Source: Glandiceps talaboti (taxonomy: Eukaryota > Hemichordata > Enteropneusta > Spengelidae). Taken from it: DNA of 64,000 nucleotides. A program made the translations under genes and the position numbers. Positions 261 through 37,548 of the stretch are shown in pieces. Position 1 is the stretch's first letter; each line of letters starts with the position of its first letter. Location: assembly GCF_964340395.1 (NCBI RefSeq), contig NC_135562.1:1007501-1071500 (forward strand). Reading direction: 5' to 3'. Under the pieces are notes generated by a model. It saw only the letters and a program-made list of their open reading frames with translations. It had not been told where the DNA came from and did not search any database.

Positions 261-441
261 AAAAATTACTATGGATTTAGTTCTTGCCAAGGTTGTTTAC
301 CATGTGACTGTGGCCAAGCATCAGGTGCTGAGCAGTGTGATGAGGTGACAGGACAGTGTGAATGTATGCCAGGTGTTAGTGGCAAAGAGTGTAATGAATG
401 TTTACCTGGTTACTGGGATTACACCCCAGTTGGATGTAGAC
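261..441 (+). CDS. LAMA1/2: Laminin alpha exon 1 of window: laminin EGF module
   Basis: Acceptor TTTTCCAG before 261, donor GTAAGT at 442, exit phase 1. It encodes the end of one EGF-like module (CQGCLPC) and most of the next (CDCGQASG ... [11 protein letters not shown]). The upstream exons are not in the window. Confidence 0.92.
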
Positions 442-3400
442 GTAAGTATCCGGGTCATAGGTCAGAGTGAAAGGTTAAGCCAGGTTATAAGTCAGATGTT
501 GATGAGAAGTCAGGAGAGTGTGAATGTATGCTGGGTGTTTGTGGCAAAGAATGTAACCTATGTTTACCGGGGATTACAGATGAACTATGTAGCCATGTAA
601 GTATCAGGGCCATAGGTCAAGTCAGGTCATAGGTCAGATGCTGAGCAGAATAATGAGAATGCATAATTCAAATCAAGTTAAGTAAATGAAAATCATGGCT
701 TGAAATTTCAACAGATCAACCCTGCATTTCTGTTTTTGACTTTCAGGACACTACTTTCATCAAACTTTTCAATTTTCACAATCTCAATGTCAGTTTATTT
801 GGAAAAATGTTGAATGTATATGGTATTGACAAACCGACCAAAGTGATTAATTTGTCATAAATTGTTGTATTCCAGGTTGTGATTGTGGAGAGAATTTACG
901 TTGTGATGTAAATACAGGAGCCTGTATATGTTTACCAGGTGCTAAAGGACCCAGATGTGATCAATGTGAAGAGAGATACATTCTAACAGAACAAGGATGT
1001 ATGCGTAAGTAAACCTTCATCTGATTGGTTTATCTAAATAAGGATGTATGCATAAGTAAACCTTCACCTGATTGGTTTATCTAAAAAATGATGTATACAT
1101 AAGTAAACCTTCATATGATTAGTTTATCTAAACAAGGATGTTTGTGTAAGTAAACCTTCATCTGATTGGTTTATCAAAAGAAAGATGTATGCATAAGTAA
1201 ACCTTCATCTCATTGGTTTAGGATATACGCATATTAAGTAAACCTTCATCTCATGATTGAAAGTGAGATGATCTCATAGAAATGAATTAACAAATAATGA
1301 TATAATGATATAACTTAAACAAAGATATTACCTTATTAATTATTTTTAGTGTGTTTAATTTGTTTTATTTATTATCTGCAAATGGTGAAGTATATGTCAT
1401 TATTATAAGATGAATTTAACGATCTCAATATATTTGACAGTATAACTTACAACAATATTTTCATAATTTTTCATTTAGCATGTGATGATTGTGTTAATAT
1501 TCTGTTGGATGAAGTGGAAATATTGAATCATAACATCTCAGAAGTTGGCGATAATCTACATGATATATCCGTTGGTGTTGGTGCTTTGAAGAGATTAGAA
1601 CAGATTAACGAAACTGCCTATGAGCTTAAGGTAAGACAGATTGGACATAGATAAATTTGAAATCACAGCTTAAGGTAAGACAGATTGGACATAGATAAAT
1701 TTGAAATCACAGCTTAAGGTAAGACAGATTGGACATGGATAAATTTGAAATCACAGCTTAAGGTAAGACAGATTGGACATAGATAAATTTGAAATCACAG
1801 CTTAAGGTAAGACAGATTAGACACAGATAAATTTAAAATCATATCCTGTTATACGTCATTCACTTTCTCACTAACTGCTTGTAATAGCATCAAAAGCAAC
1901 CGATTCAGTTGGTTTTGAAAATTATACACTCAAAGTGATTGGTTTGAAAAAACACATTCCTACTGATTGGTCACAATGGGGAGTGATAACATACGTCTGC
2001 ATAATTGACTATATTCAAAAGAAGTCAAAACTAAATGTAACCTTGTTGAGATTAGCACAGGAGTGACATAATATACATAAAATATATAGCGAATATTATG
2101 CAAATATCTTTAAACTTGTATGCTGATAACTGCCATGAGTGGGGGCGTGGCTAAATTGCTTGGTTCCCATTGGTGATACTATTACAAGCAGGGACAACAA
2201 AGCAAAACCACAGATTACAATGTAAACATGCTATTAACTTTACTAACAGCACCAAAAGATGATTTTAATGGCATCAAAAAGGGCATTGACATTAAAATTA
2301 TTTAAAGTTAGAATTTATGTATTAAGTATATTCATGCAAGTCAAAAATCTTGCATTATAAACTTCAACTTACATTGTGTACATTTTGACTGTAATAGGCA
2401 CAGTTACCTAATGCAAAGAAAGGGTACACTGGTAACTTGGAACCATTCCGAAAAGAGTTAAAAGATCTCCAGAAGAAAGCAGATCGGTTAGAAGATGAAG
2501 TATGTATTAGTTTTAAATGTTTCATTTATACCCTGTTCAGACATACACAGTTGTTTCATTTATACCCTGTTCAGACATACACAATTGTTTCATTTATACC
2601 CTATTCAGACATACACAGTTGTTCCATTTATACCCTGTTCAGACATACACAGTTGTTCCATTTATACCCTGTTCAGACATACACAGTTGTTTCATTTATA
2701 CCCTATTCAGACATACACAGTTGTTTCATTTATACCCTATTCAGACATACACAATTGTTCCATTTATACCCTGTTCAGACATACACAGTTGTTTCATTTA
2801 TACCCTGTTCAGACATACACAGTTGTTTCATTTATACCCTGTTCAGACATACACAGTTGTTCCATTTATACCCTGTTCAGACATACACAGTTGTTCTATT
2901 TATACCCTGTTCAGACATACACAGTTGTTTCATTTATACCCTGTTCAGACATACACAGTTGTTCCATTTATACCCTGTTCAGACATACACAGTTGTTCCA
3001 TTTATACCCTGTTCAGACATACACAGTTGTTCCATTTATACCCTGTTCAGACATACACAGTTGTTTCATTTATATCCTGTTCAGACATACACAATTGTTC
3101 CATTTATACCCTGTTCAGACATACACAGTTGTTTCATTTATACCCTGTTCAGACATACACAGTTGTTTCATTTATATCCTGTTCAGACATACACAATTGT
3201 TCCATTTATACCCTGTTCAGACATACACAGTTGTTCCATTTATACCCTGTTCAGACATACACAGTTGTTCCATTTATACCCTGTTCAGACATACACAGTT
3301 GTTCCATTTATACCCTGTTCAGACATACACAGTTGTTCCATTTATACCCTGTTCAGACATACACAGTTGTTCCATTTATACCCTGTTCAGACATACACAG

Positions 3401-5795
3401 TTGTTTCATTTATACCCTGTTCAGACATACACAGTTGTTTCATTTATACCCTGTTCAGACATACACAGTTGTTTCATTTATACCCTGTTCAGACATACAC
3501 AGTTGTTTCATTTATACCCTATTCAGACATACACAGTTGTTTCATTTATACCCTGTTCAGACATACACAGTTGTTCCATTTATACCCTGTTCAGACATAC
3601 ACAGTTGTTCCATTTATACCCTGTTCAGACATACACAGTTGTTTCATTTATACCCTGTTGAGACATACACAGTTGTTCCATTTATACCCTGTTGAGACAT
3701 ACACAGTTGTTCCATTTATACCCTGTTCAGACATACACAGTTGTTTCATTTATACCCTGTTCAGACATACACAGTTGTTTCATTTATACCCTGTTCAGAC
3801 ATACACAGTTGTTCCATTTATACCCTGTTCAGACATACACAGTTGTTCCATTTATACCCTGTTCAGACATACACAGTTGTTTCATTTATACCCTGTTCAG
3901 ACATACACAGTTGTTTCATTTATACCCTGTTCAGACATACACAGTTGTTCCATTTATACCCTGTTCAGACATACACAGTTGTTCCATTTATACCCTGTTC
4001 AGACATACACAGTTGTTTCATTTATACCCTGTTCAGACATACACAGTTGTTCCATTTATACCCTGTTCAGACATACACAGTTGTTTCATTTATACCCTGT
4101 TCAGACATACACAGTTGTTCCATTTATACCCTGTTCAGACATACACAGTTGTTCCATTTATACCCTGTTCAGACATACACAGTTGTTTCATTTATACCCT
4201 GTTCAGACATACACAGTTGTTCCATTTATACCCTGTTCAGACATACACAGTTACGCTGGCACTGCACCGGTGTAAAGTTACAGCTGAATTCTATCAACCT
4301 ACTACTAAGTTTCCTTGTCTGATGCTTGGCTAAAACTATGTACAGTATTAAAGGCAAAAAATCAATATGAATCAACATTGACTAAGTCTTTCTTTGTAAC
4401 TCAATAAATTGCAAAAGATTTATAAATGTGTAAAATGTTTGTTATTGTACGTACAGTAACAAACATTTTTACAATTTTTTTTAGCTTTTTGCAGTGTATT
4501 GAATTACAAACCCAGATTTGGTCTATGTAGTTTCATATTGATTTTTCAAGTAGGAAGCCATGACAAAATTATAAATTAAAAATCCAAAATAAATACCCAA
4601 TCCTCATCCATATGGGCACTCTAAATGCACAATTATGATAACTTTGACTTTTTTATTTCAACAGTCTCGTAGAGCAAAGGATGATGGGAAGGATACAGCC
4701 ATTGATGCAGGCAATACTGAGGACAGAGCTTTAGATGTTGAAAAACTGGTAGAAGAGGCAGCTAAGAAAGTTAAAGGTTGGTTGCTTAGCAACATAATTT
4801 CTAATGTCATCACTTTGCATAAGTTTGGTTTACAGATTGACTTTAAGGGCTGTATACCAGACATCTAAATGAAATCAATTGAAACAGTATTGTTATACAT
4901 CAGATATGAAAAGTGTGCCCTCTAATGATAGCTGAATTTTGTTGTTGTGAGTCAAAATGAGAACTGGGATTTCTTGTGAGTCACCACTTGACATAGTAAG
5001 AAATTTGGTGTGTCAGTAGAAATTGTGTGCATCAGTGGCACGTCAAATTGGCTTAGAGGCACACTGGCCACCACATAGTAAGAGATGGGTGAACACCAAA
5101 TTTTGGTGTGTTACTAGAAATTGTGTGTGTCAGTGGCACGTCAAATTGGCTTAGAGGGCACACTGGCCACCACGTAGTAAGAGATAGGGGAACACCAAAT
5201 TTTGGTGTGTTACTAGAAATTATGTGCATCAGTGGCAAGTCAAATTGGCTTAGAGGGCACACTGGTCCACATAGTAAGAGATAGGTGAACACCAAATTTT
5301 GGTGTGTTACTAGAAATTGTGTGCGTCAGTGGCGAGTCAAATTGGCTTAGAGGACACACTGAATCATCATATGAATGCTGTATTAAAGTGAGTGTTGTAC
5401 TAAGTGGAATATTGCTTTGCTTGGTGGATGCATTGATGGTACGTCAGTTATCGGGAAGCTAACACAGAAACATACTAAAACTATGATAACAACATGTTGA
5501 TATAAGTTAGCTAAAGAAGTTGATGTTATTAATTGCTGACAAAGTAGGATTGTGTCCCTGACAGCAAATTTTTCTAAAGTAGCTGCACATTCAGTGTTTA
5601 CTTTATCTTATTATATCCACCCTGTAATCACCCACTTGTGTAATCTACAACACACACTAACAGTAATTTTAGTTTGTGTCTATCGTTAATAGTTGGTTGA
5701 TAGCTTACTTTCCGAAGTAATATACATAGTCAAATAAAACACAAAGATTAAAGGCTGATATTGTCTAGATGTCATAGACTTTGCTGTAGAACTAC

Positions 5796-5851
<56 letters not shown>

Positions 5852-7009
5852 GCGTGTGCGTGTGAGTGTGCATGTGTGTGCGCGTGTGTGTGCGTGCGTG
5901 CATGTGTGCGTGCGTACATGTATGCATGCGTGCAAGCGTGTGTGTGTGTGCAAGTGTGTGTATGGTACTGGTGTAATATTTGTTATTCTCTTTGTTGTCT
6001 AGATGCCGTAGACTTTGCTATAGAAACTGCTGACACAATTGGTCAAAATGGTGATAAAGATTCAGACGCTTTGTTAAAAGAAGCAAGGAAGATAGTGAGA
6101 GAAATAGATGGTCGTGACTTTAGTGATCCAATGGATAATGCTGGTGATGAATTAGAACTTGCTAAAGATGGTAAGATCTGAAAGATGTACATTTGTAGTT
6201 AGAGTAAAAGATCTGTAACTATAATTATTAAATCACTTTGAAGGTTGGTGAAGCCACACATCATTGTTTTTGTGTGACTTCTATATTGACTTCGTTTCCA
6301 GCCACATTTTACCTTAAAACAAGGACTGCTGCTAAGATTTTTAAGTCAATTTGAAAGCTGAACATTTTGAACAATTTACAGAAAATCAACATTTTTCAAA
6401 ATCACTGAAATGATCATGCGTAACAAATTTTTCAATGTGTTATTAAGTTGAATATTTGAATTTGTAAAGTTGGCCAGTGTTTTACTCCAGGGTTTTACTC
6501 CAGTGTTATACTGTGGAGTTTTACTCCGGGTTTTACTCCAGTGTTATACTGTGGGGTTTTACTCCAGGGTTTTACTCCAGTGTTTTACTCCAGTGTTTTA
6601 CTCCAGGGTTTACTCCAGTGTTTATACTGTGGGGTTTTACTCCAGTGTTTTAATCCGGGGTTTTATTTGGTGTTTTACTCTGGGGTTTTACTCCAGTGTT
6701 TTACTGCGGGGTTTTATTGTCTCTTCCAGCACTCAAGAGAGCACAGAGAATACAAAGAAAAGGTGATTTACAGGAAGAGGAATGTAACCGTGTGGAAGAC
6801 GGTATTGACAATGTAATGGATAAATTCCGGGAATTGATTGATCTTAGTGATGAAACAAATGCAGTTTTGGATGAAGTTGATATATTTAATGATCTCAATA
6901 AAGACCCAGAATATAAGGTATCAATAACAGCTGACAACTAGTGTAGAAACTGCCCCCCCAAAAAAAAAAAAAAAAAAATAAATAAATAAATAAAATAAAA
7001 TAAAATGAA

Positions 7010-7044
<35 letters not shown>

Positions 7045-10000: not shown

Positions 10001-10343
10001 TCAATTTTAGAATCTGTCAGGTTCATTAGGATTCATGTCTGTGTTTTATTCCTTGTAGTCTGATTGCTGATACAAGAGAATATGGTGAGAATGCTATTGA
10101 GGCTGCTAAAGCATATGAACACATAGAAGAAGCACTTGTTGATGCAATGGCTGCAGCGAGAGCTGCAAAGGTTGCAGCAGATAATGCTGCAGATATGGTA
10201 AAGATGCAATCTACATGTTTTAAAAGAAATTTCTTTTGTTTGTACTTTTTCAAGTTGTAAATTTAATATGGCATGTGTGTGTGAGTATGTGTGTGCCAAT
10301 GTCACTTCTTGTGTACACGGCTTAATAAATAAATAAATATGTA

Positions 10344-10434
<91 letters not shown>

Positions 10435-10499
10435 ATGTGTGTGGGCATGTGCATGCATGCATACATGTATGTATGTATGTACATGTATGTATGTATGTA

Positions 10500-10534
<35 letters not shown>

Positions 10535-28600: not shown

Positions 28601-31600
28601 GTGTTCCTTCACCTGACGCAGCTAAAAACGTACAAGTAAGTTACTATTGGTTTTACAGCATAATTGGGGGTATTATTACCTCATAGTACTGATTCTTAAG
28701 AGCTTTGTCCCGTGGTATTCTGTAGAAAGGTAAATCAGGGATGTTTTTTGTATTGTTCAGACACTGAGGAAAGCAGCAGTGCTCTATGAGTTACTGAGTA
28801 ACCTATACCATGTGTACCCCCAAGGTACACACCCAGACAGGAAGTAGAGTGCCAACACAGACAGGAAGTAGAGTGCCACCATGGCAAATTTTGGAAAGGC
28901 CTATTGATATTGAAACTCCAAGGTGTCTTGTACAAGAATTTGTCAGGTTGAACATTTTTTATAATTTGCATATTATTTATATTATCAAATCAAATCAGAT
29001 AAATGGAGTCAGAATTTTACACATTTTTTCTCTGTTTATCAGTTTCATTACTTCATGTAATAATTTTTTTGGTTCAATATGCACAATCGATTTCTGTATA
29101 TGTTTGAAGCTAAAAATTCAATGAGTTAGGGAGTCTTTCTCACTTGTGATTATATGTCCACTTTCAGATACCTCCTGGACCAACAAATAAACACAAGCTG
29201 ATATATCATGAATATTAATGAATCAAATATGTCTGTTGTGTAACCAAATATCTTTCCTCCAATGACACTGTCAGTCACATTTCCTGGGTTGTGAATGACA
29301 AATTTTGCACTTTTCAGACTCGAGCACGTACCAGTTTTGATGGTTGTATCCGTGACTTCAAACTGAATGATGTAGACTTTGGTGAGCCAGCTAGACAATA
29401 TGATGTTGTACCATGTCTTACAAATACTGAAGGAGGTACATACTTTGGTGTTGATGGTGGACATATAGTTTGGAGTAAGTACATTATTATAGAATTAACC
29501 TATGGTGACCCAGGGGTCAAATTGAAATGGAATACATATCTAAAAGTAGTGTCCAAGATTCAATTGTGCAAGATAAAAATACCGACAATTAATAGTACAT
29601 ATAGAAATACAGACATGTGTTCATCTGCTTTACTTATTGTGAAACCAGTAGGCATTAATATGATTTGCATATCTTGAAAATTTGCATATTGATGTATTTC
29701 AACAGGTGTATTTTTCAAAATTAGGTACGAATTTTGAGATGTAAATGCAATCAAACCCATCAATGGTCATATAATTTGCATATTAATAATTGTCTTCATA
29801 ACATGAAGGTTTCAATGTAGATTTGGATGAAAGAATGTCAAACCAATAAAATTTGCATATTAATTTATTTGAACAGGTGAAGGTTTCAATATAGGTGTGG
29901 ATGACATTCAAATGAATATCAAACCTATACAATTTGCATATTAATTTATTTGAACAGGTGAAAGTTTTAAAGTAGGTTTGGATCTTGCCATTGAAATGGA
30001 TATCAAACCAAGAGCTCTTTCAGGAATTATTGCATCAGTTCAAGGTGCTAGAGGAGACTTCTTTTCCCTGGAGTTAGTTGATGGAAATGTAAGTATTATA
30101 CATAATTTATCTGTAAATATAGATTATCCATGTAAGCCAGCAACCAGACACAGTCTGAAGAAGACCATTCTAATGTGATTATTTGTATATATATAGAGAG
30201 AGTTTATTACCCAATTATAAAAAGAAGATTACTGTTCATACTACATGTATGAAGTAGACTAAGGTTGGTTGATAGGTAATGGGAGTCAGAAAAATAGCAT
30301 AATACTAGTCAAGTCTGACCTCACAGACACTGGAATGTTACAAAAGTTAGGTACATCTTTTCCATGCTGGGAAGTGTGTGTATGTTAAGCAGGGGTGAAC
30401 AAATCCATTGGTCATGGGTCCGAGACTAGCGATTTTTCTGGGCAGACCACACAAATTTTACCCTGTCTGGTCTGTCAGACTAGTACCTTACTGTTAATAA
30501 CTATCTTAAAAAGTCCTTTGAATATACAGATTCATAGGTAAGATTTAATGTTTCACATTAGTGGGACCTTGGACCACTAATTCTTTCAGCAAGACCTCTG
30601 GATTTTTTAAGGCACTGGTCCGGGGACCACCAGTTCACGAAATGATTTGTTCACCCCTGTGTTAAGTGTCTACAGGTAGTCATATGTTTGACATGCAAAG
30701 GACAACAGTTACCTCATTCTCTTACATAGATTAATGTTGACTTTGAACCTGAGTCAGCTTTGTGATCACTCTGGTACACTGATTACTGCTGAGGAATGTC
30801 TGACCACCTGTAGTTGTGCTAATTTTAATTGTTCATTCATTAATCGATTGTTTATTACAACATTGTTCCTCTGTTGTGTAATTTTAATCATTATCCTGTG
30901 ATCAACATAGCATAAATATTCAAAGTCCCAAAACAGCATTGCAAGTTCATGTAACTCAAAATAAACTAGTTTTCAGAGACACCTCCCTACTGAGACTATA
31001 ATTAAACCAGTTTCAATAGCTTATCACTGTTGTACCTACATGTTGCGAAAATCATTTTAGTTTGTGTCATTGTCAATCTTAATAATAGCCAATATTACTT
31101 GCAAATCATCCACTCTGTTATTGTGTTTGTTGACAAACAAGGTTTTTTTTGATCATGTAAAATTTGATAGTTGCACAAGACTTTGCTTTTAATCGAAGAT
31201 TATTGCAGAGATCACTAATTTAATGTAAAACAAAATGACAGACATTTCCTGTGTGTCATCACCATTTATAGCCGAAAAATACAAGATCAAAGACATTATC
31301 AGCTCTGCTCATCCAGAAAGACAGAAATGATTGAAATCAGTTTTGCAATATTTCTAACAATTTGTTTAATTTACAGATGATTTTGAGTGCAGACAATGGG
31401 GAGGGAGCATTCCATACTATGTATGAACCATCACAATCAGATGGGAAAGCATATTTATGTGATGGACAGTGGCATAGTGTACATGGTATGTATATCATTT
31501 GTTAGGTTCATATTTATGTGATGGACAGTGGCATAGTGTACATGGTATGTATATCATTTGTTAGGTCCATATTTATGTGATGGACAGTGACATAGTGTAC

Positions 31601-34600
31601 ATGGTATGTATATCATTTGTTAGGTTCATATTTATGTGATGGACAGTGGCATAGTGTACATGGTATGTATATCATTTGTTAGGTTCATATTTATTTGATG
31701 GACAGTGACATAGTGTACATGGTATGTATATCATTTGTTAGGTTCATATTTATGTGATGGACAGTGGCATAGTGTACATGGTATGTATATCATTTGTTAG
31801 GTTCATATTTATGTGATGGACAGTGGAATAGTGTACATGGTATGTATATCATTTGTTAGGTTCATATTTATGTGATGGACAGTGGAATAGTGTACATGGT
31901 ATGTATATCATTTATTAGGTCCATGGGTATGTGATGGACAGTGGAATAGTGTACATGGTATGTATATCATTTGTTAGGTTCATATTTATGTGATTGACAG
32001 TGGCATAGTGTACATGGTATGTATATCATTTGTTAGGTTCATATTTATGTGATGGACAGTGGAATAGTGTACATGGTATGTATATCATTTGTTAGGTTCA
32101 TATTTATGTGATGGACAGTGGAATAGTGTACATGGTATGTATATCATTTGTTAGGTTCATATTTATGTGATGGACAGTGGAATAGTGTACATGGTATGTA
32201 TATCATTTGTTAGGTCCATATTTATGTGATGGACAGTGACATAGTGTACATGGTATGTATATCATTTGTTAGGTCCATGGGTATGTGATGGACAGTGGAA
32301 TAGTGTACATGGTATGTATATCATTTGTTAGGTCCATGGGTATGTGATGGACAGTGGAATAGTGTACATGGTATGTATATCATTTGTTAGGTCCATGGGT
32401 ATGTGATGGACAGTGACATAGTGTACATGGTATGTATATCATTTCTTAGGTTCATATTTATGTGATGGACAGTGACATAGTGTACATGGTATGTATATCA
32501 TTTCTTAGGTTCATATTTATGTGATGGACAGTGGAATAGTGTACATGGTATGTATATCATTTGTTAGGTTCATATTTATGTGATGGACAGTGGCATAGTG
32601 TACATGGTATGTATATCATTTCTTAGGTTCATATTTATGTGATGGACAGTGACATAGTGTACATGGTATGTATATCATTTGTTAGGTTCATATTTATGTG
32701 ATGGACAGTGACATAGTGTACATGGTATGTATATCATTTGTTAGGTTTATGTGATGGACAGTGGCATAGTGTACATGGTATGTATATCATTTGTTAGGTT
32801 CATATTTATGTGATGGACAGTGGAATAGTGTACATGGTATGTATATCATTTGTTAGGTTCACATTTATGTGATGGACAGTGGAATAGTGTACATGGTATA
32901 TATATCATTTGTTAGGTTCATATTTATGTGATGGACAGTGGCATAGTGTATATGGTATGTATATCATTTGTTAGGTTCATGTTTATGTGATGGACAGTGG
33001 AATAGTGTACATGGTATATATATCATTTGTTAGGTCCATGGGTATGTGATGGACAGTGGAATAGTGTACATGGTATGTATATCATTTGTTAGGTCCATGG
33101 GTATGTGATGGACAGTGGAATAGTGTACATGGTATGTATATCATTTGTTAGGTTCATATTTATGTGATGGACAGTGGCATAGTGTACATGGTATGTATAT
33201 CATTTGTTAGGTTCATATTTATGTGATGGACAGTGGAATAGTGTACATGGTATGTATATCATTTGTTAGGTCCATGGGTATGTGATGGACAGTGGCATAG
33301 TGTACATGGTATGTATATCATTTGTTAGGTCCATATTTATGTGATGGACAGTGACATAGTGTACATGGTATGTATATCATTTGTTAGGTCCATATTTATG
33401 TGATGGACAGTGACATAGTGTACATGGTATGTATATCATTTGTTAGGTCCATATTTATGTGATGGACAGTGACATAGTGTACATGGTATGTATATCATTT
33501 GTTAGGTTCATATTTATGTGATGGACAGTGACATAGTGTACATGGTATGTATATCATTTGTTAGGTTCATATTTATGTGATGGACAGTGGAATAGTGTAC
33601 ATGGTATGTATATCATTTGTTAGGTCCATGGGTATGTGATGGACAGTGGCATAGTGTACATGGTATGTATATCATTTGTTAGGTCCATATTTATGTGATG
33701 GACAGTGACATAGTGTACATGGTATGTATATCATTTGTTAGGTCCATATTTATGTGATGGACAGTGACATAGTGTACATGGTATGTATATCATTTGTTAG
33801 GTCCATGGGTATGTGATGGACAGTGGAATAGTGTATATGGTATGTATATCATTTGTTAGGTCCATGGGTATGTGATGGACAGTGGCATAGTGTACATGGT
33901 ATGTATATCATTTGTTAGGTTCATATTTATGTGATGGACAGTGGCATAGTGTACATGGTATGTATATCATTTGTTAGGTCCATTGGTATGTGATGGATAG
34001 TGGAATAGTGTACATGGTATGTATATCATTTGTTAGGTCCATGGGTATGTGATGGACAGTGACATAGTGTACATGGTATGTATATCATTTGTTAGGTCCA
34101 TGGGTATGTGATGGATAGTGGAATAGTGTACATGGTATGTATATCATTTGTTAGGTCCATGGGTATGTGATGGACAGTGGAATAGTGTACATGGTATGTA
34201 TATCATTTGTTAGGTCCATGGGTATGTGATGGACAGTGGAATAGTGTACATGGTATATATATCATTTGTTAGGTCCATGGGTATGTGATGGACAGTGACA
34301 TAGTGTACATGGTATGTATATCATTTGTTAGGTCCATGGGTATGTGATGGACAGTGACATACAAAATGTAGTGTACATGGTATGTATATCATTTGTTAGG
34401 TCCATGGGTATGTGATGGACAGTGGAATAGTGTACATGGTATGTATATCATTTGTTAGGTCCATGGGTATGTGATGGACAGTGACATAGTGTACATGGTA
34501 TGTATATCATTTGTTAGGTCCATGGGTATGTGATGGACAGTGACATAGTGTACATGGTATGTATATCATTTGTTAGGTCCATGGGTATGTGATGGACAGT

Positions 34601-37548
34601 GACATAGTGTACATGGTATGTATATCATTTGTTAGGTCCATGGGTATGTGATGGACAGTGACATAGTGTACATGGTATGTATATCATTTGTTAGGTCCAT
34701 GGGTATGTGGGAACTACTCAAATTGAAAAGCAATGAAAAAGTGAATATCCTTGGTCCTGGAAAATGGATTTTTTTTGTATGATGAGCCATTAACTCACTT
34801 TATGAATTAAATGTCCTTTGGTACCTATTTTCATCTTTTTGTCTGCCCATAATATTAAATGTTTTGGATAAGAGACACTCAGTAAGATCTACTGTTCTGT
34901 ACTCTCAATGTTTGTGGTCTAAAATTATGGATAGTTTCCTGATTTTACATTGACAAAAACAATCAACAAGGAAAGATTCCCAAGTTGGGCAAAATAAAGG
35001 AAATTATGAGTTTCCGATAACCTGATCGATCCTAGTTTAAGTCGCCGACCTTAAACATTTTTAAACGTTTAGAACAAAAAGATAAGAAATTATTTGTTTT
35101 CTTGACCTTCATGCACGTCTGCTTTCTTTCCCCAGTCATATCTATACAGGTATACAGGTATATTTCTAATTTTAGGCCCTATTTAGGCCTCTGACATCAG
35201 ATCTAGATTAACGATAGTCTTATCAGTGGGTATGCTTGCATAGTCTTCAATTTAAATTTCATTTACAAGTCCTTCCCAGTGTCTATCTAAACGTCTCTCA
35301 AAAGTATATACATTTGGTGCATCAACCACATGATTGGGACGACTGTTCCAGTGGTTTATACTTCTATGTACAAAACTAATATCCAGCCTTGTATGGACTT
35401 TGTACAGTTTATATTGATGCCCTCTAGTGTCACAATGTCTGGTCTTAACAAAATCAGTCACTCTAGTATCATATTTCCCTGACATAATTTTGTATAGTTC
35501 AATCCTTTTGTCCCATGGTATATGATCTATCTGGCAAGAATGTCTTTCCTATCCGCATACTGGCACATTTATCTGGATGAAATTTCAGAAGAGAGTTCTC
35601 TGTCCAAGTATACATATTATCAATATCTGCTTGTATTTAAAGCAATCACAGTCTTCTTCCTTGAATATCCCCTTGAAAACTTTAGTATGTGTGCGAATAC
35701 AATGTAGATAATAAGTGATATATCTCACACATTTAATCAAACTACCACAGAATAGGTATACTAACCGACATTTCTAATGTTTTAAAAATAAAAACAATTA
35801 AAAAGATAAAAGAATATAAAATCTCGACCTACCTACCCTATTGTATGAGGCTATGTTATCGGAAACTCATTTTTTCCACCTTAAGTACAAATGTACATTG
35901 TATACAGTTAACTTAGAATAATGGCACCAAGATGTTATGTATTTAAATTCATAATTGTATCATAATGTCTGTGACAGGCCTGCCAAAAAACACATGTAAT
36001 ACATCATGACAAGCCACACAAATATGGAGAAGACTTTTACAACATGTGCTTTTAATACACTAATACTGTTTTTATTTACATTACTTTACTTAAAGGAAAG
36101 GTCCAATCAAATACATTTGTAATCTTTGTGTATTTATTAATAATTGATATGTATGTGAATTGTAGAAATAAAATGAAACATATTAAATTATGTGACTTTG
36201 AAATGTCAAAATTCTGCTATGTTTAGCCTAAATGTTTGCTGCCATTTTGGGAACTTTTGCTGCAAAGGATGATGGGAAGACTATCTGCCTGTGGTTTCAC
36301 CTCAGATTTTGTTCTTCTTTTTTCAGCTGTTAAAGCCAAGGATGTTGTGTATTTAACAATTGACAATAAACCTGATAACAATTATGGACAGTTGACAGGA
36401 CAACAAAAATCAACCGATACCAATGATCCACTTTATATTGGAGGTTTACCAGGTAGAAATATTATAAATATTTACACTTTTTACTGTTTCTGTCATTTTA
36501 TGGCAAATATCATATCATGGATTGAATACATCACAATTTTTTTTTTTTAGTCTGATTAATGAATCATCTCATGTCAGTGTGAAAAAATATTGACAAACTA
36601 GCTTACATAAATAGTAATATTGAAGGATAAAGTGAAGGGGCAATTTAGATTATAGTAGTGTTGTGATTATACCCGGTATGTATCAGCTGTTATACCATAC
36701 ACAAGTCAGGTTGAAGGAAAAATATGGAATATATACTCTGATTGTGATATGTCATGACAACACGTGGCTACGTCATGACAACACGTGTCTACGTCATGAC
36801 AACATGTGTCTACATCATGACAACATGTGGCTACGTCATGACAACATGTGTCTACGTCATGACAACATGTGTCCACGTCATGACAACATGTGTCCACGTC
36901 ATGACAACATGTGTCCACGTCATGACAACATGTGTCCACGTCATGACAACATGTGTCCACGTCATGACAACATGTGTCCATGTCATGACAACATGTGGCT
37001 ACGTAATGACAACATGTGGCTACGTCATGACAACATGTGTCTACGTCATGACAACATGTGTCTACATCATGACTACATGTGGCTACGTCATGACAACATG
37101 TGGCTACGTCACTGGTTCTGTACAGTCAAAATCTTCAAAATTGCCATTACTTTCTTTGATATCACTGGTGCTGGTATAATTATGTTATTCTCATGACCTA
37201 AGGGGCCTTGTCACTATGAGTCACTAGATAAGTAGTGACAAAGGCCTCTTAGGTCACTAGTATTTAACTCGGCTGAATGAAGAAAAATATTTGGGAATAA
37301 CATGTAAGTGTATGTAGAGATTGTGTATGTGCAGTGTGTTTATGTATGTGTGTGAAATCATTAAATTTGTGAAATAAATTATTCTGATTTTAATTACAGC
37401 TGGCGTAAAACATAAGGGGATTTCAACCAATGACAATTTTGTTGGATGTATTCGAAATTTTTCCATCAATGATAATGCTACAGTAAACTTCAACAACGTG
37501 GCTGAAATATCTGGAGCTGTCCAACCAAACAGTTGTCCTGCTACATAG
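261..37548 (+). CDS. LAMA1/2: Laminin subunit alpha (alpha-1/2 type), C-terminal 1615 residues, 33 exons
   Basis: Secreted basement-membrane protein. The alpha chain joins beta and gamma chains through its coiled coil, and its C-terminal LG domains bind cell receptors (integrins, dystroglycan in alpha-1/2 chains). Joining the 33 exons listed below gives one frame with no stop until TAG at 37546-37548. Order by residue of the window product: two laminin EGF-like modules (about 1-105), long heptad-like coiled coil of domains II and I (about 106-670), then LG1 (about 668-860), LG2 (861-1037), LG3 (1038-1220), a linker of about 40 residues, LG4 (1262-1444) and LG5 (1445-1615). Each LG ends with the usual GC-x(n)-C pair. 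LG5 has LCDGQWHSV and the C-terminus reads NSCPAT, close to vertebrate LAMA1/LAMA2 as I remember them. The N-terminal half (LN domain, remaining EGF and L4 domains) is outside the window. The LG3-LG4 linker shows no obvious furin site. Confidence 0.93.
480..620 (+). pseudogene. Degraded duplicate of laminin exon 1 3' end
   Basis: About 510-600 repeats the coding sequence and donor of exon 1 (355-450): GTGTGAATGTATGC, GGCAAAGAATGTAA, TGTTTACC and a donor-like GTAAGTATC at 600. Amino acids read [14 protein letters not shown] against [14 protein letters not shown]. It has lost its second half and is not an intact module. Confidence 0.75.
876..1004 (+). CDS. LAMA1/2: Laminin alpha exon 2: last laminin EGF module
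   Basis: Acceptor ATTCCAG, donor GTAAGT, phase 1 to 1, 43 codons. Regular cysteine spacing [11 protein letters not shown] ... [15 protein letters not shown] marks the last EGF-like module before the coiled coil. Confidence 0.92.
991..1255 (+). repeat. 44-bp repeat spanning laminin exon 2 end and donor, about 6 copies
   Basis: Unit runs from exon bases AAGGATGTATGC through GTAAGTAAACCTTCATCTG and on to GGTTTATCTAAA. Several copies have lost the donor GT (GCATAAGT), one keeps GTAAGT. Copies diverge with distance from the exon. Confidence 0.85.
1479..1630 (+). CDS. LAMA1/2: Laminin alpha exon 3: start of coiled-coil domain II
   Basis: Acceptor CATTTAG, donor AAG|GTAAGA, enters phase 1 and leaves phase 0. 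It opens with [16 protein letters not shown], the cysteine pair and Leu-rich start typical of laminin alpha domain II. Confidence 0.92.
1625..1850 (+). repeat. 44-bp repeat spanning laminin exon 3 end and donor, 5 copies
   Basis: CTTAAG|GTAAGACAGATTGG is repeated with donors at 1631, 1675, 1719, 1763 and 1807, all intact. Each unit also holds AAATCACAG just before CTTAAG, an acceptor-like AG bounding a 6-base segment. Confidence 0.9.
2398..2499 (+). CDS. LAMA1/2: Laminin alpha exon 4: coiled coil
   Basis: Acceptor GTAATAG, donor GTATGT, phase 0 to 0, 34 codons. Charged heptad-like sequence ([18 protein letters not shown]). A 34-bp minisatellite starts about 20 bp after the donor and is open in all three plus-strand frames, so the ORF running on from this exon is an artefact. 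Confidence 0.88.
2519..4251 (+). repeat. 34-bp minisatellite, about 51 copies, laminin intron 4
   Basis: Unit TTTCATTTATACCCTGTTCA plus GACATACACAGTTG, with a T/C switch (TTTCAT or TTCCAT) and rare CTATTC, CTGTTGAG or ATATCC variants. It starts about 20 bases after the exon 4 donor. No stop in any plus frame, so it makes long false ORFs. Confidence 0.95.
4357..4613. mobile_element. Palindromic MITE-like element, copy 1 (left arm truncated)
   Basis: Near-palindrome centred on GTACGTAC at about 4449: AACTCAATAAATTGCAAAAG on the left mirrors GCTTTTTGCAGTGTATTGA on the right. Right end reads TCCATATGG. Same family as 15396, 27308, 38444 and 39848. Confidence 0.75.
4665..4776 (+). CDS. LAMA1/2: Laminin alpha exon 5: coiled coil
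   Basis: Acceptor TTTCAACAG; donor AAAG|GTTGGT is weaker than most in this gene but gives the phase (1) required by the next exon. Encodes [14 protein letters not shown] ... [11 protein letters not shown]. Confidence 0.87.
4985..5360. repeat. 98-bp tandem repeat, nearly 4 copies, laminin intron 5
   Basis: CAGTGGCACGTCAAATTGG recurs at 5033, 5131, 5230 and 5327, with shared TAGTAAGAGAT and CACCAAATTTTGGTGTG blocks. Confidence 0.85.
5761..5799 (+). pseudogene. Degraded copy of laminin exon 6 acceptor and start
   Basis: TTGTCTAGATGTCATAGACT, then TTGCTGTAGAACTACTTG, matches the exon 6 junction TTGTCTAG|ATGCCGTAGACT, then TTGCTATAGAAACTGCTG. Separated from the true exon by a TG microsatellite. 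Confidence 0.75.
5796..5960. repeat. (TG)n microsatellite with CG-containing variants
   Basis: Pure TG to about 5845, then TGCG and TGCA variants up to the exon 6 region. Confidence 0.95.
6003..6170 (+). CDS. LAMA1/2: Laminin alpha exon 6: coiled coil
   Basis: Acceptor TTGTTGTCTAG, donor GATG|GTAAGA, phase 1 to 1. Encodes [15 protein letters not shown] ... ELELAKD. A degraded copy of its first 30 or so bases, with its acceptor, lies upstream at 5761-5799. Confidence 0.9.
6474..6722 (+). repeat. Minisatellite of TTTTACTCCAG motifs before laminin exon 7
   Basis: Irregular 16-17-bp units TTTTACTCCAGTG or TTTTACTCCAGGG, with TATACTGTGG variants. Each looks like a polypyrimidine-CAG acceptor and the array stops about 10 bases before the true acceptor of exon 7. 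Confidence 0.85.
6730..6917 (+). CDS. LAMA1/2: Laminin alpha exon 7: coiled coil
   Basis: Acceptor GTCTCTTCCAG, donor AAG|GTATCA, phase 1 to 0. Encodes [14 protein letters not shown] ... LNKDPEYK. A minisatellite full of TTTACTCCAG motifs ends just upstream of the acceptor. Confidence 0.9.
6951..7041. repeat. Poly-C/poly-A and (TAAA)n tract
   Basis: C8 followed by A-rich sequence with TAAATAAATAAA and TAAAATAAAAT, then a long A run. Could be the remnant of a retroposed tail. Confidence 0.8.
7505..7621 (+). CDS. LAMA1/2: Laminin alpha exon 8: coiled coil
   Basis: Acceptor TTCTCTGTAG, donor CAA|GTAAGT, phase 0, 39 codons: [15 protein letters not shown] ... EADKAVQ. Confidence 0.9.
7696..8850. 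mobile_element. Unclassified dispersed repeat in laminin intron 8
   Basis: Three diverged copies of a block with AAACTACTGAGCAGATTG and GAAATTTGGTGGGAAC, a short (TG)n, then about four 115-120-bp units with GACCACGCCCATAGCAACAG. TAGCACAACTG near the left end is mirrored by CAGTTGTGCTA at the right. A related sequence lies inverted at 49030-49470. Confidence 0.6.
8870..9340. repeat. TGTGTATGAGATCTGATG minisatellite, laminin intron 8
   Basis: Irregular units of 18-20 bases alternating TGAGATCTGATGTGTG and GGGATTTCAATTGTG forms, up to shortly before exon 9. Confidence 0.9.
9372..9529 (+). CDS. LAMA1/2: Laminin alpha exon 9: coiled coil
   Basis: Acceptor CATATTGACAG, donor GATGA|GTAAGT, phase 0 to 2. 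Encodes [16 protein letters not shown] ... RRQANRLD. Its last 11 bases and donor are repeated downstream in a unit of about 90 bp. Confidence 0.9.
9519..9975 (+). repeat. About 90-bp repeat spanning laminin exon 9 end and donor, 5 copies
   Basis: AGGTTAGATGA|GTAAGTATGG (exon end plus donor) recurs about every 90 bases with ACATATGTACCAGAGATTAC between. Some copies keep GTAAGT, others have GTTAGT. Confidence 0.9.
10059..10197 (+). CDS. LAMA1/2: Laminin alpha exon 10: coiled coil
   Basis: Acceptor TTCCTTGTAG, donor ATG|GTAAAG, phase 2 to 0. Alanine-rich helix ([20 protein letters not shown]), resembling the same part of vertebrate laminin alpha-2 domain I. Confidence 0.9.
10339..10720. repeat. 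Compound (TG)n, (TATG)n, (TCTG)n, (ACGT)n microsatellite
   Basis: Successive blocks of TG, TATG, TCTG, TATG, ACGT and TG repeats. Open in several frames on both strands, hence many false ORFs. Confidence 0.95.
10885..10978 (+). CDS. LAMA1/2: Laminin alpha exon 11: coiled coil
   Basis: Acceptor TTGCTAG, donor GGAG|GTAGGC, phase 0 to 1. Encodes [15 protein letters not shown] ... EKVEG. Confidence 0.87.
11268..11560 (+). mobile_element. SINE-like element, copy in laminin intron 11
   Basis: GGCTGAAGTCCTTGGGCAAGATTTGACCCA, split here as GGCTGAAGTCC and GGGCAAGATTTGACC, then GGTAGGATAGAGGTTGCAATG and GGGGTTGAGGAAGTTAAGAG. The same series occurs on the minus strand at 50660-51060, where a tRNA-like head is also visible. 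Confidence 0.7.
11584..11700 (+). CDS. LAMA1/2: Laminin alpha exon 12: coiled coil
   Basis: Acceptor TTTCAACCTCAG, donor TCAG|GTAAGT, phase 1 to 1. Encodes [16 protein letters not shown] ... DTIPS. Its last 34 bases and donor recur four more times downstream in a 77-bp tandem unit. Confidence 0.9.
11667..12060 (+). repeat. 77-bp repeat spanning laminin exon 12 end and donor, 5 copies
   Basis: Exon bases GAAATCAAAGCTGACATTG to CCATCAG and donor GTAAGT recur with donors at 11701, 11778, 11855, 11932 and 12009, nearly identical. The intron part TTACAGGAGAAA to TGTTTCACTCA resembles the arms of the element at 39789-40452. Confidence 0.92.
12415..12600 (+). CDS. LAMA1/2: Laminin alpha exon 13: coiled coil
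   Basis: Acceptor AATTCTTACAG, donor AGCT|GTAAGT, phase 1 to 1. Encodes [16 protein letters not shown] ... MNKAETS. The preceding TGATATGATTTGAT-rich stretch (about 12250-12410) holds several extra TTACAGAT motifs. Confidence 0.9.
12690..13050. mobile_element. Dispersed repeat in laminin intron 13
   Basis: GACAATCTTTAATTTTCC, GGTGGCCATATTGGATTCTA and TTTTAACTGAGAATG recur with changes at 63545-63700 in the homeobox gene intron. Family unknown. Confidence 0.55.
13141..13205 (+). pseudogene. Degraded duplicate of laminin exon 14 start
   Basis: TTCTTTTAG|TGAAAAAGTTAAAC, then CCTCAAGCTCAA, mirrors TTCTTTCAG|TGAATAAATTAAAA, then CCGCAAGCTCAA of exon 14, about 90 bases upstream. In the exon frame it reads [15 protein letters not shown] and then a stop. 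Confidence 0.8.
13239..13393 (+). CDS. LAMA1/2: Laminin alpha exon 14: end of coiled coil
   Basis: Acceptor TTTCTTTCAG, donor CGT|GTAAGT, phase 1 to 0. Encodes [16 protein letters not shown] ... RARDQAARV-type coiled-coil end before LG1. A degraded copy of its start lies at 13141-13205. Confidence 0.9.
13570..13743 (+). repeat. Acceptor-side duplicates of laminin exon 15 start
   Basis: TTTCTATTTTTAG followed by AATGACCTTGCCATGG, ATTGACCTTGCCATGACC and ATTGACTTTCCATGACC precede the true TTTCTATTTTCAG|ATTGATGTTGCCATGACC. Four acceptor-like junctions in 175 bases. Confidence 0.85.
13744..13905 (+). CDS. LAMA1/2: Laminin alpha exon 15: start of LG1
   Basis: Acceptor CTATTTTCAG, donor GAT|GTAAGT, phase 0, 54 codons. 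Start of the LG1 beta-sandwich ([21 protein letters not shown]). Both edges are duplicated: three acceptor-side copies upstream and about 25 donor-side copies downstream. Confidence 0.92.
13876..14840 (+). repeat. 39-bp repeat spanning laminin exon 15 end and donor, about 25 copies
   Basis: Unit TTGACCTTCCTAGGAGGACT, TGAAACAGAT|GTAAGTAAA, derived from the last 30 exon bases and donor. Almost all copies keep GTAAGT or GTAAAT. The second half is a 78-bp dimer alternating GGTACTTGAAATGGAT and GGACTAGAAACGGAT forms. Open in the exon frame to about 14941. Confidence 0.95.
15396..15680. mobile_element. Palindromic MITE-like element, copy 2
   Basis: Mirror arms around GTACGTAC at about 15494; left TATTTGTTTTGGATTTTTGA, right end TCATCCATATGG. 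The left arm carries an internal deletion relative to copy 4. Confidence 0.75.
15766..15896 (+). CDS. LAMA1/2: Laminin alpha exon 16: LG1
   Basis: Acceptor TTAATTTTAG, donor AAAG|GTATGT, phase 0 to 2. Contains [21 protein letters not shown] and [10 protein letters not shown], standard LG strand motifs. Confidence 0.93.
16020..16375. repeat. About 121-bp tandem repeat, 3 copies, laminin intron 16
   Basis: TTACACCATTGGATCGTTTATG to AAGTGGACACTAGAGGGCGG recurs three times. Similar sequence is inverted at about 39180-39330, so the unit comes from a dispersed repeat. Confidence 0.85.
16445..16589 (+). CDS. LAMA1/2: Laminin alpha exon 17: LG1
   Basis: Acceptor ATCTTAACAG, donor ACA|GTAAGT, phase 2 to 0. 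Contains [15 protein letters not shown], the FVGG strand of LG domains. Confidence 0.93.
16600..17030. other. Laminin intron 17, probable dispersed repeat
   Basis: Contains GTCTGTTCGTCCATGTGTCC and two similar stretches with a TTTCTCAGACATGCAAATT or TTTTACGAGATATGCAAATT core. Looks transposon-derived but no ends can be set. Confidence 0.35.
17040..17164 (+). CDS. LAMA1/2: Laminin alpha exon 18: end of LG1
   Basis: Acceptor TTCTTTCACAG, donor AAAG|GTGAAA, phase 0 to 2. Contains [21 protein letters not shown] and the closing cysteine in DTGCKER. Confidence 0.92.
17165..18076. other. Laminin intron 18, G/A-rich and C/A-rich tracts
   Basis: 17640-17830 is a purine-rich series (AAAGGGGTGGGAGTTGGGG; repeated GGCAGGAAATGATAAAAAGG); 17885-17965 is C/A-rich. 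No gene seen. Confidence 0.6.
18077..18245 (+). CDS. LAMA1/2: Laminin alpha exon 19: LG2
   Basis: Acceptor TATATTCCACAG, donor GAT|GTAAGT, phase 2 to 0. Contains [15 protein letters not shown] and [11 protein letters not shown] 39-bp minisatellite starts about 18 bp after the donor. Confidence 0.92.
18264..19062 (+). repeat. 39-bp minisatellite, about 20 copies, laminin intron 19
   Basis: Unit GGTTGCTATGGATGCATATT, TAAGACTACTGAGAGTTAT, starting about 18 bases after the exon 19 donor. Open in the exon frame, so intron read-through gives a false ORF to 19097. Confidence 0.95.
19188..19351 (+). CDS. LAMA1/2: Laminin alpha exon 20: LG2
   Basis: Acceptor AAATGACAG, donor TGG|GTAATG, phase 0 to 2. 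Contains [19 protein letters not shown] and [11 protein letters not shown] second AG four bases on (ACAG|ATTT) would break the frame. Confidence 0.9.
19497..20005 (+). repeat. About 60-bp minisatellite, 8-9 copies, laminin intron 20
   Basis: Unit TTTATATTTGGTACTCAGCT, ATGTTTACACTTATGTTCAA, CATAAATGTGATATACCTAGG. The final copy runs into the exon 21 acceptor region. Confidence 0.93.
20027..20125 (+). CDS. LAMA1/2: Laminin alpha exon 21: LG2
   Basis: Acceptor CTCTTCAAACAG, donor CAAG|GTAATT, phase 2 to 2. Contains [15 protein letters not shown] minisatellite of about 60-bp period runs up to this acceptor. Confidence 0.9.
20130..20520. other. Laminin intron 21, contains a dispersed-repeat fragment
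   Basis: 20284-20330 (GTGGCACAAGCTGAATTTAT, CTCAAGTGAAAATA) matches the inverse of 39425-39475. No gene seen. Confidence 0.5.
20530..20647 (+). CDS. LAMA1/2: Laminin alpha exon 22: end of LG2
   Basis: Acceptor TTTCTCCCCAG, donor TTG|GTAGGA, phase 2 to 0. Contains [13 protein letters not shown] and FIGCQEL, the LG2 cysteine pair. Confidence 0.92.
21170..22390 (+). repeat. Mixed 38/41-bp minisatellite, about 31 copies, laminin intron 22
   Basis: TACTGTATAGATCTCTAG followed by AACTGTCTGCAATGTTACAG (38 bp) or TCTCACTGTCTGCAATGTTACAG-type (41 bp). The two forms are arranged in repeated blocks. Not adjacent to an exon. Confidence 0.95.
22626..22769 (+). CDS. LAMA1/2: Laminin alpha exon 23: LG3
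   Basis: Acceptor TCTCATCACAG, donor CAG|GTCAGT, phase 0, 48 codons. Contains [21 protein letters not shown]. Confidence 0.91.
23169..23314 (+). CDS. LAMA1/2: Laminin alpha exon 24: LG3
   Basis: Acceptor TTTGTTTCCAG, donor AAA|GTAAGT, phase 0 to 2. Contains [15 protein letters not shown] and [11 protein letters not shown] 39-bp minisatellite begins about 30 bp downstream. Confidence 0.91.
23345..25492 (+). repeat. 39-bp minisatellite, about 55 copies, laminin intron 24
   Basis: Unit ATATATCCAGGCATTTATAG, TCAGCTGTGTGTTCAGTAG. Variants (CTGTGTG or TTGTGTTTT, GTC or ATC) form blocks: runs of four GTTGTGTTTT units near 24940 and 25320 flank six CTGTGTG units. Two copies at about 23700 and 24490 share an extra ACATGT. 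Open on both strands. Confidence 0.96.
25587..25735. repeat. (TGCC)n, (TGTC)n, (CGTC)n tetranucleotide repeat
   Basis: Consecutive TGCC, TGTC, CGTC and again TGTC runs. Confidence 0.95.
25946..26128 (+). CDS. LAMA1/2: Laminin alpha exon 25: end of LG3
   Basis: Acceptor TATTCTTTTTAG, donor GAGT|GTAAGT, phase 2 to 2. Contains [10 protein letters not shown] and [15 protein letters not shown]. Its last 44 or so bases and donor are repeated about a dozen times downstream. Confidence 0.91.
26085..26822 (+). repeat. 57-bp repeat spanning laminin exon 25 end and donor, about 13 copies
   Basis: Exon bases TATTTCATTGGCTGTGTGTC to AATGGAGT, donor GTAAGTAAATAC, then the exon copy again. Every copy keeps a donor-like GTAAGT except one with GCAAGT near 26756. 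Three alternating forms (ACATAAT, ATGGAGT, ACAGAAT) give a longer period of three units. Confidence 0.94.
27001..27246 (+). CDS. LAMA1/2: Laminin alpha exon 26: LG3 end, linker, LG4 start
   Basis: Acceptor TTTCTTTTTCAG, donor TTAG|GTAAGT, phase 2 to 2. Completes LG3 ([11 protein letters not shown]), then a Pro/Thr-rich linker ([15 protein letters not shown]) and the start of LG4 ([14 protein letters not shown]). Confidence 0.92.
27308..27556. mobile_element. Palindromic MITE-like element, copy 3 (right arm truncated)
   Basis: Left arm GGTATTTATTGTGGATTTGT, AACTCAATAAATTACAAAAAG, centre TTGTATGTAGAATACAA, right arm CAATTAATTGAGTTACAAAC, then cut off next to the element at 27569. Confidence 0.7.
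27569..27714. mobile_element. 146-bp MITE-like element with long inverted repeats
   Basis: Imperfect terminal inverted repeats of about 54 bases (left AGTCTCGCTGCCAGACT..., right ...AGTCTGGGCAGCGAGACT) share CCCTAATCTGTTTATGTAT. Flanked by the 11-base direct repeat AGGGATCAACT at 27558-27568 and 27715-27725, read as a target-site duplication. Length and 9-11-base duplication would fit a Mutator-like element; inference only. Confidence 0.85.
27768..27957 (+). CDS. LAMA1/2: Laminin alpha exon 27: LG4
   Basis: Acceptor TTGATCAATAG, donor TCG|GTGAGT, phase 2 to 0. Contains [20 protein letters not shown] and [13 protein letters not shown]-like insertion ends about 40 bp upstream, close to the branch-point region. 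Confidence 0.92.
28068..28212. repeat. Short TGTGATGTTGATTTGATC tandem repeat
   Basis: About six irregular units with CCAAG, CAAAG or CCGAC between, in laminin intron 27. Confidence 0.85.
28480..28635 (+). CDS. LAMA1/2: Laminin alpha exon 28: LG4
   Basis: Acceptor CTATTTTACAG, donor CAA|GTAAGT, phase 0, 52 codons. Contains [17 protein letters not shown] and [10 protein letters not shown]. Confidence 0.92.
28636..29317. other. Laminin intron 28
   Basis: Holds a two-copy ACAGACAGGAAGTAGAGTGCC repeat near 28840-28880 and otherwise AT-rich sequence. No gene seen. Confidence 0.6.
29318..29474 (+). CDS. LAMA1/2: Laminin alpha exon 29: end of LG4
   Basis: Acceptor TGCACTTTTCAG, donor TGGA|GTAAGT, phase 0 to 1. 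Contains [17 protein letters not shown] and [15 protein letters not shown], the LG4-LG5 junction. Confidence 0.92.
29690..29957 (+). repeat. Acceptor-side duplicates of laminin exon 30 start, 3 diverged copies
   Basis: Exon 30 begins TTTATTTGAACAG|GTGAAAGTTTTAAAGTAGG. A copy about 81 bases upstream (29877) keeps TTTATTTGAACAG|GTGAAGGTTTCAATATAGG and further homology to AATATCAAACC, then reaches an in-frame stop. Two older copies lie at about 29704 and 29800. All end with AATTTGCATATTAAT. Confidence 0.85.
29958..30088 (+). CDS. LAMA1/2: Laminin alpha exon 30: LG5
   Basis: Acceptor TTATTTGAACAG, donor AAT|GTAAGT, phase 1 to 0. Contains [15 protein letters not shown] and [11 protein letters not shown]. 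Upstream diverged copies of the same acceptor and exon start (29690-29957) compete with it. Confidence 0.9.
30390..30659. mobile_element. 270-bp hAT-like MITE
   Basis: Perfect 16-base terminal inverted repeats CAGGGGTGAACAAATC / GATTTGTTCACCCCTG and flanking direct repeats TGTTAAG (30383-30389 and 30660-30666). CAGGGGTG ends and a 7-8-base duplication are typical of hAT elements. No coding capacity. Confidence 0.85.
30670..31376. other. Laminin intron 30, remainder
   Basis: AT-rich intron sequence without clear repeats or ORFs. Confidence 0.5.
31377..31485 (+). CDS. LAMA1/2: Laminin alpha exon 31: LG5
   Basis: Acceptor TTTAATTTACAG, donor CATG|GTATGT, phase 0 to 1. Ends in [11 protein letters not shown], a signature of alpha-1/2 LG5. 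The exon end and donor are amplified in the 59-bp array that follows. Confidence 0.92.
31450..34712 (+). repeat. 59-bp repeat spanning laminin exon 31 end and donor, about 55 copies
   Basis: Unit: exon-derived TATTTATGTGATGGACAGTG, GCATAGTGTACATG, donor GTATGTATATCATTTGTTAG, then GTTCA. Variants TCATATTT/CCATGGGT and GGCAT/GGAAT/GACAT are mixed; CCATGGGT forms dominate the 3' half. One copy near 34360 carries an ACAAAATGTA-type insertion. Nearly every copy keeps GTATGT. Confidence 0.96.
35009..35872 (-). mobile_element. TE region with non-LTR retrotransposon fragment, laminin intron 31
   Basis: 35252-35485 minus encodes [18 protein letters not shown] and [19 protein letters not shown] then LDRHW, the typical C-terminal end of CR1/Jockey-like LINE polyproteins. 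It lies between ATGAGTTTCCGATAAC at about 35006 and its inverse at about 35857, perhaps the ends of a larger element. Confidence 0.7.
36327..36452 (+). CDS. LAMA1/2: Laminin alpha exon 32: LG5
   Basis: Acceptor CTTTTTTCAG, donor CCAG|GTAGAA, phase 1 to 1. Contains [14 protein letters not shown] and [12 protein letters not shown], matching the alpha-1/2 pattern. Confidence 0.92.
36757..37110. repeat. 21-bp minisatellite with ACGTCA motif, about 17 copies, laminin intron 32
   Basis: Unit ACGTCATGACAACATGTGTC plus one base, with CTACGTCA and CCACGTCA forms. Most copies contain ACGTCA and ACATGT. The flanks (36660-36750 and 37120-37290) match 11015-11250 and 26830-26960, so the array sits inside a dispersed element. 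Confidence 0.92.
37400..37548 (+). CDS. LAMA1/2: Laminin alpha exon 33: C-terminal end of LG5 and stop
   Basis: Acceptor TTTAATTACAG, phase 1 in, stop TAG at 37546-37548. Encodes [20 protein letters not shown] and closes with NSCPAT, giving the LG5 disulfide pair. Confidence 0.93.

Follow-up and report, generated by a model that had tools for sequence, protein, structure and literature searches.

Minisatellite arrays across exon-intron junctions of a laminin alpha chain gene

The window, meaning the whole stretch of 64,000 nucleotides that was analysed, contains the 3′ part of a laminin alpha chain gene, for which 33 hand-placed exons gave a single open frame of 1615 codons with GT/AG at all intron edges seen. 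These are the last 33 exons of the gene; if there are others upstream, the window does not reach them. Pfam matches on the protein were EGF_laminin, Laminin_I, Laminin_II and five Laminin_G stretches, so that the 33-exon part has a layout of laminin EGF, coiled-coil domains I/II and five LG domains. The best PDB relatives of the LG part were laminin alpha-2 and alpha-1, followed closely by neurexins. GC content was 35% for the window and 40% for the laminin coding sequence, with a laminin GC3 of 27%; lancelet coding sequences have a much higher GC3, which hints that the host is not Branchiostoma. Rfam at gathering scores gave no match in the window, and the tRNA scan found no tRNA there. The genes and other features of the window, apart from the arrays of the laminin gene, are as follows.

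261..37548 (+): laminin alpha chain gene, 3′ part, 33 exons, stop codon at 37546-37548
3′ of the laminin gene (-): syntaxin-like gene
3′ of the laminin gene (+): CFAP95 gene
61640-63020 (-): homeobox-like exons, in a frame with WFQNRRAKWRK
1-150: 26-bp array of 5.8 copies, 5′ of exon 1 in an intron cut off by the window edge
7698-8853: intron 8 insertion whose ends are inverted, AGCACAACTG ... CAGTTGTGCT
38440-38760, 4357-4614, 15398-15673, 27318-27542 and 39845-40181: copies of an interspersed fold-back element of ~320 bp
49581-49610: ATAGGTC array of 4.3 copies, just upstream of an acceptor of the syntaxin-like gene (-, exon start ~49570), non-crossing

The homeobox-like exons may belong to a paired-type homeobox gene that runs off the window. 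The intron 8 insertion looks like a non-autonomous DNA transposon and apparently splits a minisatellite with the unit TGTGTGTATGAGATCT, copies of which lie on both sides (~7660-7697 and 8871-9342). The fold-back element, recognised by self-match on both strands, has at least five copies, and the others are 68-82% identical to the one at 38440-38760.

A reading of the laminin gene from its letters, hereafter the sequence-only reading, had listed splice junctions that are themselves repeat units. In our survey, the segment from -20 to +20 of each junction was locally aligned to 600 bp on each side, and copies were accepted with a score of at least 32 and a span of at least 5 bp on both sides of the junction. 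Junction-spanning copies were found at 12 of 64 junctions, namely 8 of 32 donors (exons 1, 2, 3, 9, 12, 15, 25 and 31) and 4 of 32 acceptors (exons 6, 14, 15 and 30), which matches the earlier list exactly, including the diverged case at exon 1. The two neighbouring genes had copies at 0 of 24 junctions (Fisher p 0.03 versus the laminin gene), and arrays were few there too. When the same search was applied to control points, copies were found for 1.0% of 198 exon-interior and 46% of 384 intron-interior points. Junction copies are far above the exon level, yet intron interiors are more repetitive still. Junction overlap alone was therefore rejected as proof that the repeats are anchored on junctions. 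The duplications across donors were the following.

322..622 (+): exon 1 donor (exon end 441), diverged two-copy duplication with ~120 bp of exon copied, lag ~159, 115/155 columns identical, score 34
993..1220 (+): exon 2 donor (exon end 1004), 47-bp unit, 4.9 copies, TRF and junction search
1623..1841 (+): exon 3 donor (exon end 1630), 44-bp unit, 5.0 copies, TRF and junction search
9519..9955 (+): exon 9 donor (exon end 9529), 89-bp unit, 4.9 copies, TRF and junction search
11667..12050 (+): exon 12 donor (exon end 11700), 77-bp unit, 5.0 copies, TRF and junction search
13876..14836 (+): exon 15 donor (exon end 13905), 39-bp unit in frame, 24.6 copies, TRF and junction search
26081..26823 (+): exon 25 donor (exon end 26128), 57-bp unit in frame, 13 copies, stop right after the donor, TRF and junction search
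31450..34700 (+): exon 31 donor (exon end 31485), 59-bp unit, 55 copies, TRF and junction search

Those across acceptors were four.

5761..6031 (+): exon 6 acceptor (exon start 6003), two-copy, lag 234, TG microsatellite between the copies, 32/37 columns identical, copied acceptor below the scoring threshold
13138..13282 (+): exon 14 acceptor (exon start 13239), two-copy, lag 80, 50/65 columns identical, junction search
13578..13763 (+): exon 15 acceptor (exon start 13744), 41-bp unit, 4.7 copies, TRF and junction search
29804..30011 (+): exon 30 acceptor (exon start 29958), 81-bp unit, ~2.3 copies, further acceptor-like site at 29706, TRF and junction search

The seven TRF-found donor arrays hold 105 extra donor copies. 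Of these, 100 have GT, and 103 match or exceed the score of the weakest real donor. The earlier estimate was about 115 extra donor-like sites; our count falls somewhat short of this, even with the diverged exon 1 copy, which was missed by the 105-copy count because of its mismatch limit and adds one. GT was kept in 73 of 74 copies in the arrays of exons 3, 12, 25 and 31 and in 22 of 23 extra donors of exon 15, and was lost in 3 of 4 extra copies of exon 2. In the exon 9 array, 3 of 4 copies were weakened, differing at the third intron base. All 54 extra copies of the exon 31 array, with 36 exon bases per unit, have GT, and 51 of them carry the exon's own donor 9-mer, making this array a natural test of how the spliceosome chooses among identical sites. 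Sites scoring at least as high as the median real donor numbered 109 in the 6.2 kb of donor-junction arrays, compared to 10 in the rest of the intron sequence (25.9 kb).

Of 24 arrays found by TRF, 9 crossed a junction by at least 5 bp and 15 did not. Several arrays came close to an exon without crossing, or abutted it.

2518..4252 (+): 18 bp after the exon 4 donor, 34-bp unit, 51 copies, TRF
18261..19068 (+): 15 bp after the exon 19 donor, 39-bp unit, 20.8 copies, TRF
23353..25496 (+): 38 bp after the exon 24 donor, 39-bp unit, 54.7 copies, TRF
6474..6716 (+): ends 13 bp short of exon 7, 13/26/77-bp array, TRF
19495..20007 (+): ends 19 bp short of exon 21, 61-bp unit, 8.4 copies, TRF
12271..12417 (+): abuts the exon 13 acceptor (exon start 12415), 23-28 bp degenerate unit, overlap of 3 bp, preceded by three acceptor-like sites, classed as non-crossing

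The arrays beside exons 4, 7, 19, 21 and 24 had been placed within about 30 bases of the exon, which is right for four of the five, the exception being exon 24 with 38 bp. Three neighbours of exons can be added to those, namely an array ending 29 bp before exon 9, the one abutting the exon 13 acceptor, and, 27 bp beyond exon 16, a 34-bp repeat in two copies.

In order to compare array positions with chance, arrays were merged by hand from TRF output. Arrays with units of up to 6 bp were omitted, as were the microsatellite-like tracts at 5797-5961 and 17911-17975 (for which TRF gives longer periods too, and neither of which crosses a junction), and the array at 1-150 was excluded from the counts. 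Restricting the resulting 28 arrays to those of at least 100 bp and at least 2.2 copies, without microsatellites, dropped four short or two-copy arrays and left the set of 24. These cover 15,357 of 32,440 intron bases (47%), compared to 256 of 4,848 exon bases. Since minisatellites make up 47% of intron sequence, some overlap with junctions is expected. For a per-intron null, each array was slid within its own intron and up to one unit into either exon, with crossing defined as at least 5 bp. Under this null, the 24 arrays crossed 7 donors versus 2.45 expected (p 0.006), 2 acceptors versus 2.45 (p 0.73), and 9 junctions of either kind versus 4.89 (p 0.03); with the set of 28, 9 junctions of either kind were crossed versus 5.07 (p 0.04). 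When introns were stripped of repeats, the expectation became 2.90 for donors (p 0.016) and 5.81 for either junction (p 0.08), and when free intron length was capped at 200 bases, the values were p 0.06 for donors and p 0.30 for either junction. Across the per-intron nulls, the expected number was 2.4-3.7 for donors and likewise for acceptors, and the donor p values ranged from 0.005 to 0.06. A gene-wide null gave 1.27 expected donors (p 0.0004). An extended set gave 12 versus 6.18 (p 0.006), a result that is biased, as three of its duplications were added only via the junction-centred search.

Counting arrays that touched a junction of either kind or came within 40 bp of it gave 16 versus 9.5 expected (p 0.002). 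The result depends on the distance chosen, with p 0.064 at 10 bp, 0.002 at 20 bp and 0.025 at 60 bp. With the 40-bp limit applied to donors, 10 of 24 arrays started at or near one, versus 4.76 expected (p 0.009). Arrays leaned towards both intron edges when positions were folded (KS p 0.013), whereas a plain KS test of array position in the intron was not significant (p 0.26). We read these placement tests, which concern one gene and were run after the pattern had been noticed, as a modest donor excess with no acceptor excess. The description of the repeats as anchored on splice junctions is thus only partly supported, with a modest excess at donors and none at acceptors, in introns that are nearly half minisatellite.

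A process focused on splice sites had been offered as one cause of this pattern, and the structure of the units gives it no support. In the nine arrays that cross a junction, the exon share of the unit ranged from 0.12 to 0.84, which is consistent with a uniform distribution (KS p 0.95, n=9). The splice site has no set register in the unit, and there is therefore no sign, in this small sample, of a process starting at the GT. Nor do the copied donors vary in a special way: the donor 9-mers had 13 distinct variants, compared to 12.9 in random 9-column windows of the same units, and whole-unit extraction with distinct variants counted per column gave no difference between donor and other columns. 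The extra donors are neither kept nor purged, and vary like the rest of the unit. A first count had pointed to special conservation of the extra donors, with 3.0% change (28/945) versus 8.3% elsewhere (400/4832), and was set aside as flawed because shared variants had been counted repeatedly and copies had been picked by their donor. The lack of a fixed place for the splice site in the unit, together with the free variation of the donors, favours ordinary minisatellites in which splice sites are passengers.

The excess at donors could also mean that these are preferred birthplaces of tandem duplication, for instance if transcription-coupled breaks or R-loops form close to the 5′ splice site. 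Transcription- or U1-linked hot spots of this kind would account for eight donor duplications of differing ages in one gene, and both the crossing of donors without a corresponding acceptor excess and the number of arrays starting at or near a donor agree with them. We nevertheless consider such hot spots unlikely, since the position of the unit relative to the GT is not fixed, the donor excess falls to p 0.06 if introns are assumed to have been short at birth, and the evidence comes from a single gene tested after the pattern was seen. In addition, an identical bias would result if arrays at donors simply survived better.

Differences between donor and acceptor duplications are compatible with unequal survival. 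Donor duplications have 2-55 copies (n=8) and acceptor duplications 2-4.7 (n=4; Mann-Whitney p 0.016, a post hoc comparison), and the latter (71-86% alike) are mostly more diverged than donor arrays (87-98%, with 74% for exon 1). A copied donor would sit behind the real one, while a copied acceptor would sit upstream of the real one and be met first by the spliceosome, and donor arrays may outlast acceptor arrays for this reason. The cost of an upstream acceptor is no strict rule, as acceptor-like sites before exons 13, 14, 15 and 30 still score well; upstream of exon 6, none was over the threshold.

If the copied donors were used in splicing, the protein would mostly be broken, because the unit length is not divisible by three in 5 of the 7 donor arrays found by TRF, and a sixth unit, that of exon 25, meets an immediate stop. 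With exon 15 left aside, a stop follows after 1 to 9 codons in each of the seven remaining donor duplications, including that of exon 1. Through the array after exon 15, the frame of the exon stays open for 345 codons (13906-14940), with the first stop at 14941, and each unit used would add 13 residues to the first LG domain. This could be taken as a sign that extra splice sites are functional, either as alternative donors, as with the in-frame LG1 lengthening at exon 15, or as docking sites for U1 along the intron; the near-complete retention of GT in the exon 15 array and the high density of good donors in the donor-junction arrays would fit such a role. Yet the open frame is unremarkable, because 30 of the 39 unit bases are coding and few single changes of the unit (4 of 117) create a stop. 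With 27 distinct minor variants among the copies, selection is not needed to explain it. As the donor columns are also without extra conservation, GT or donor strength has been lost in most copies of exons 2 and 9, and the remaining donor duplications soon hit a stop, a function of the extra sites is very unlikely.

We also considered whether the long arrays are partly assembly artefacts, with repeats collapsed or inflated. Arrays of at least 50 near-identical units are hard to assemble, and one lancelet array of this type seemed aberrantly assembled in a genome draft (PMC3087553). Copies in the present arrays share some variants and have others to themselves, there is no N anywhere in the window, and the diverged two-copy cases are not easily accounted for in this way, which makes an artefact extremely unlikely, although copy numbers may still err.

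We therefore favour, with a probability of about 75%, ordinary minisatellites that arose by local tandem duplication in a repeat-rich gene and carry splice sites as passengers. A local duplication, probably by slippage or unequal exchange in the case of the first copies, would take in the end of an exon together with the start of its intron. Such a duplication would cost little because the exon's own splice site stays beside the exon and the copies land in the intron, and the donor in use is presumably the exon's own. Boundary arrays would then grow and decay as other minisatellites do. Their range of ages, from an array that is 98% identical to a two-copy relic that is 74% identical, makes the path from duplication to decay traceable within one gene. 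Of the three causes proposed by the sequence-only reading, tolerance, with extra sites ignored by splicing, would fit best, and the arrays are most likely neutral repeat DNA that the splicing machinery tolerates.

Repeats of this kind have a name, "mirage", which was reportedly coined in a paper on amphioxus Adh3. According to the parts of the literature available to us, mirages are minisatellite-like tandem duplications of exon-intron boundaries in lancelet Adh3 and the globins BflGb6 and BflGb9 (PMC3087553), and they also occur in troponin C and PGBD5 of lancelets (PMC3902484), so that the reported hosts are cephalochordates (PMC3087553, PMC3902484). The same parts describe units of 10-160 bp, copy numbers that vary between haplotypes, and RT-PCR results that suggest regular splicing; the authors call the mechanism unclear, and a route to new introns has been proposed (PMC3087553). 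The laminin arrays resemble lancelet mirages in that the unit spans a donor or an acceptor and lies beside a real junction (12/64 junctions, 9/24 TRF arrays). As described in those excerpts, mirages adjoin a normally used splice site, their copies homogenise, and AG/GT is present in many, not all, copies (PMC3087553); laminin donors likewise have GT in 100 of 105 copies, with 1 of 4 in exon 2. Judged by their letters, then, the laminin arrays have the sequence features of mirages. They differ in that 12 junctions are affected in one gene, with up to 55 copies, and in being known here from the sequence of one haplotype alone. Lancelet PGBD5 has imperfect 60-bp and 108-bp tandem repeats over 5′ and 3′ splice sites in one gene, with copy numbers differing between assemblies, but, from the portion of the paper available, two exons and 2-7 copies are involved, unlike in the laminin gene (PMC3902484).

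Two other known systems are related in part, again as far as the accessible text of the papers goes. Tandem duplication of AGGT is an accepted route of intron gain and, like the laminin arrays, multiplies splice signals (PMC3443670). There the new intron arises within an exon (PMC3443670), whereas in the laminin gene existing introns are lengthened; 0 of 28 arrays reach both ends of their intron, and thus none provides the two splice sites of an existing intron. Direct repeats near intron borders also lie close to splice sites, but these are single repeats of 4-30 bp, read as traces of intron insertion, and not tandem arrays of junctions (PMC11782384). Among the matches listed, no title or abstract opening reported boundary minisatellites outside lancelets. 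The laminin gene had been called unusual, and this needs qualification, as repeats of the same kind are published for several lancelet genes; it stands insofar as no published gene that we saw has as many, with Adh3 known to us only via citing papers. Relative to the literature in the form we had it, what may be new is the number of arrays in one gene and perhaps the host too. In a host other than a lancelet, such arrays would show boundary minisatellites to be more widespread than those published cases suggest.
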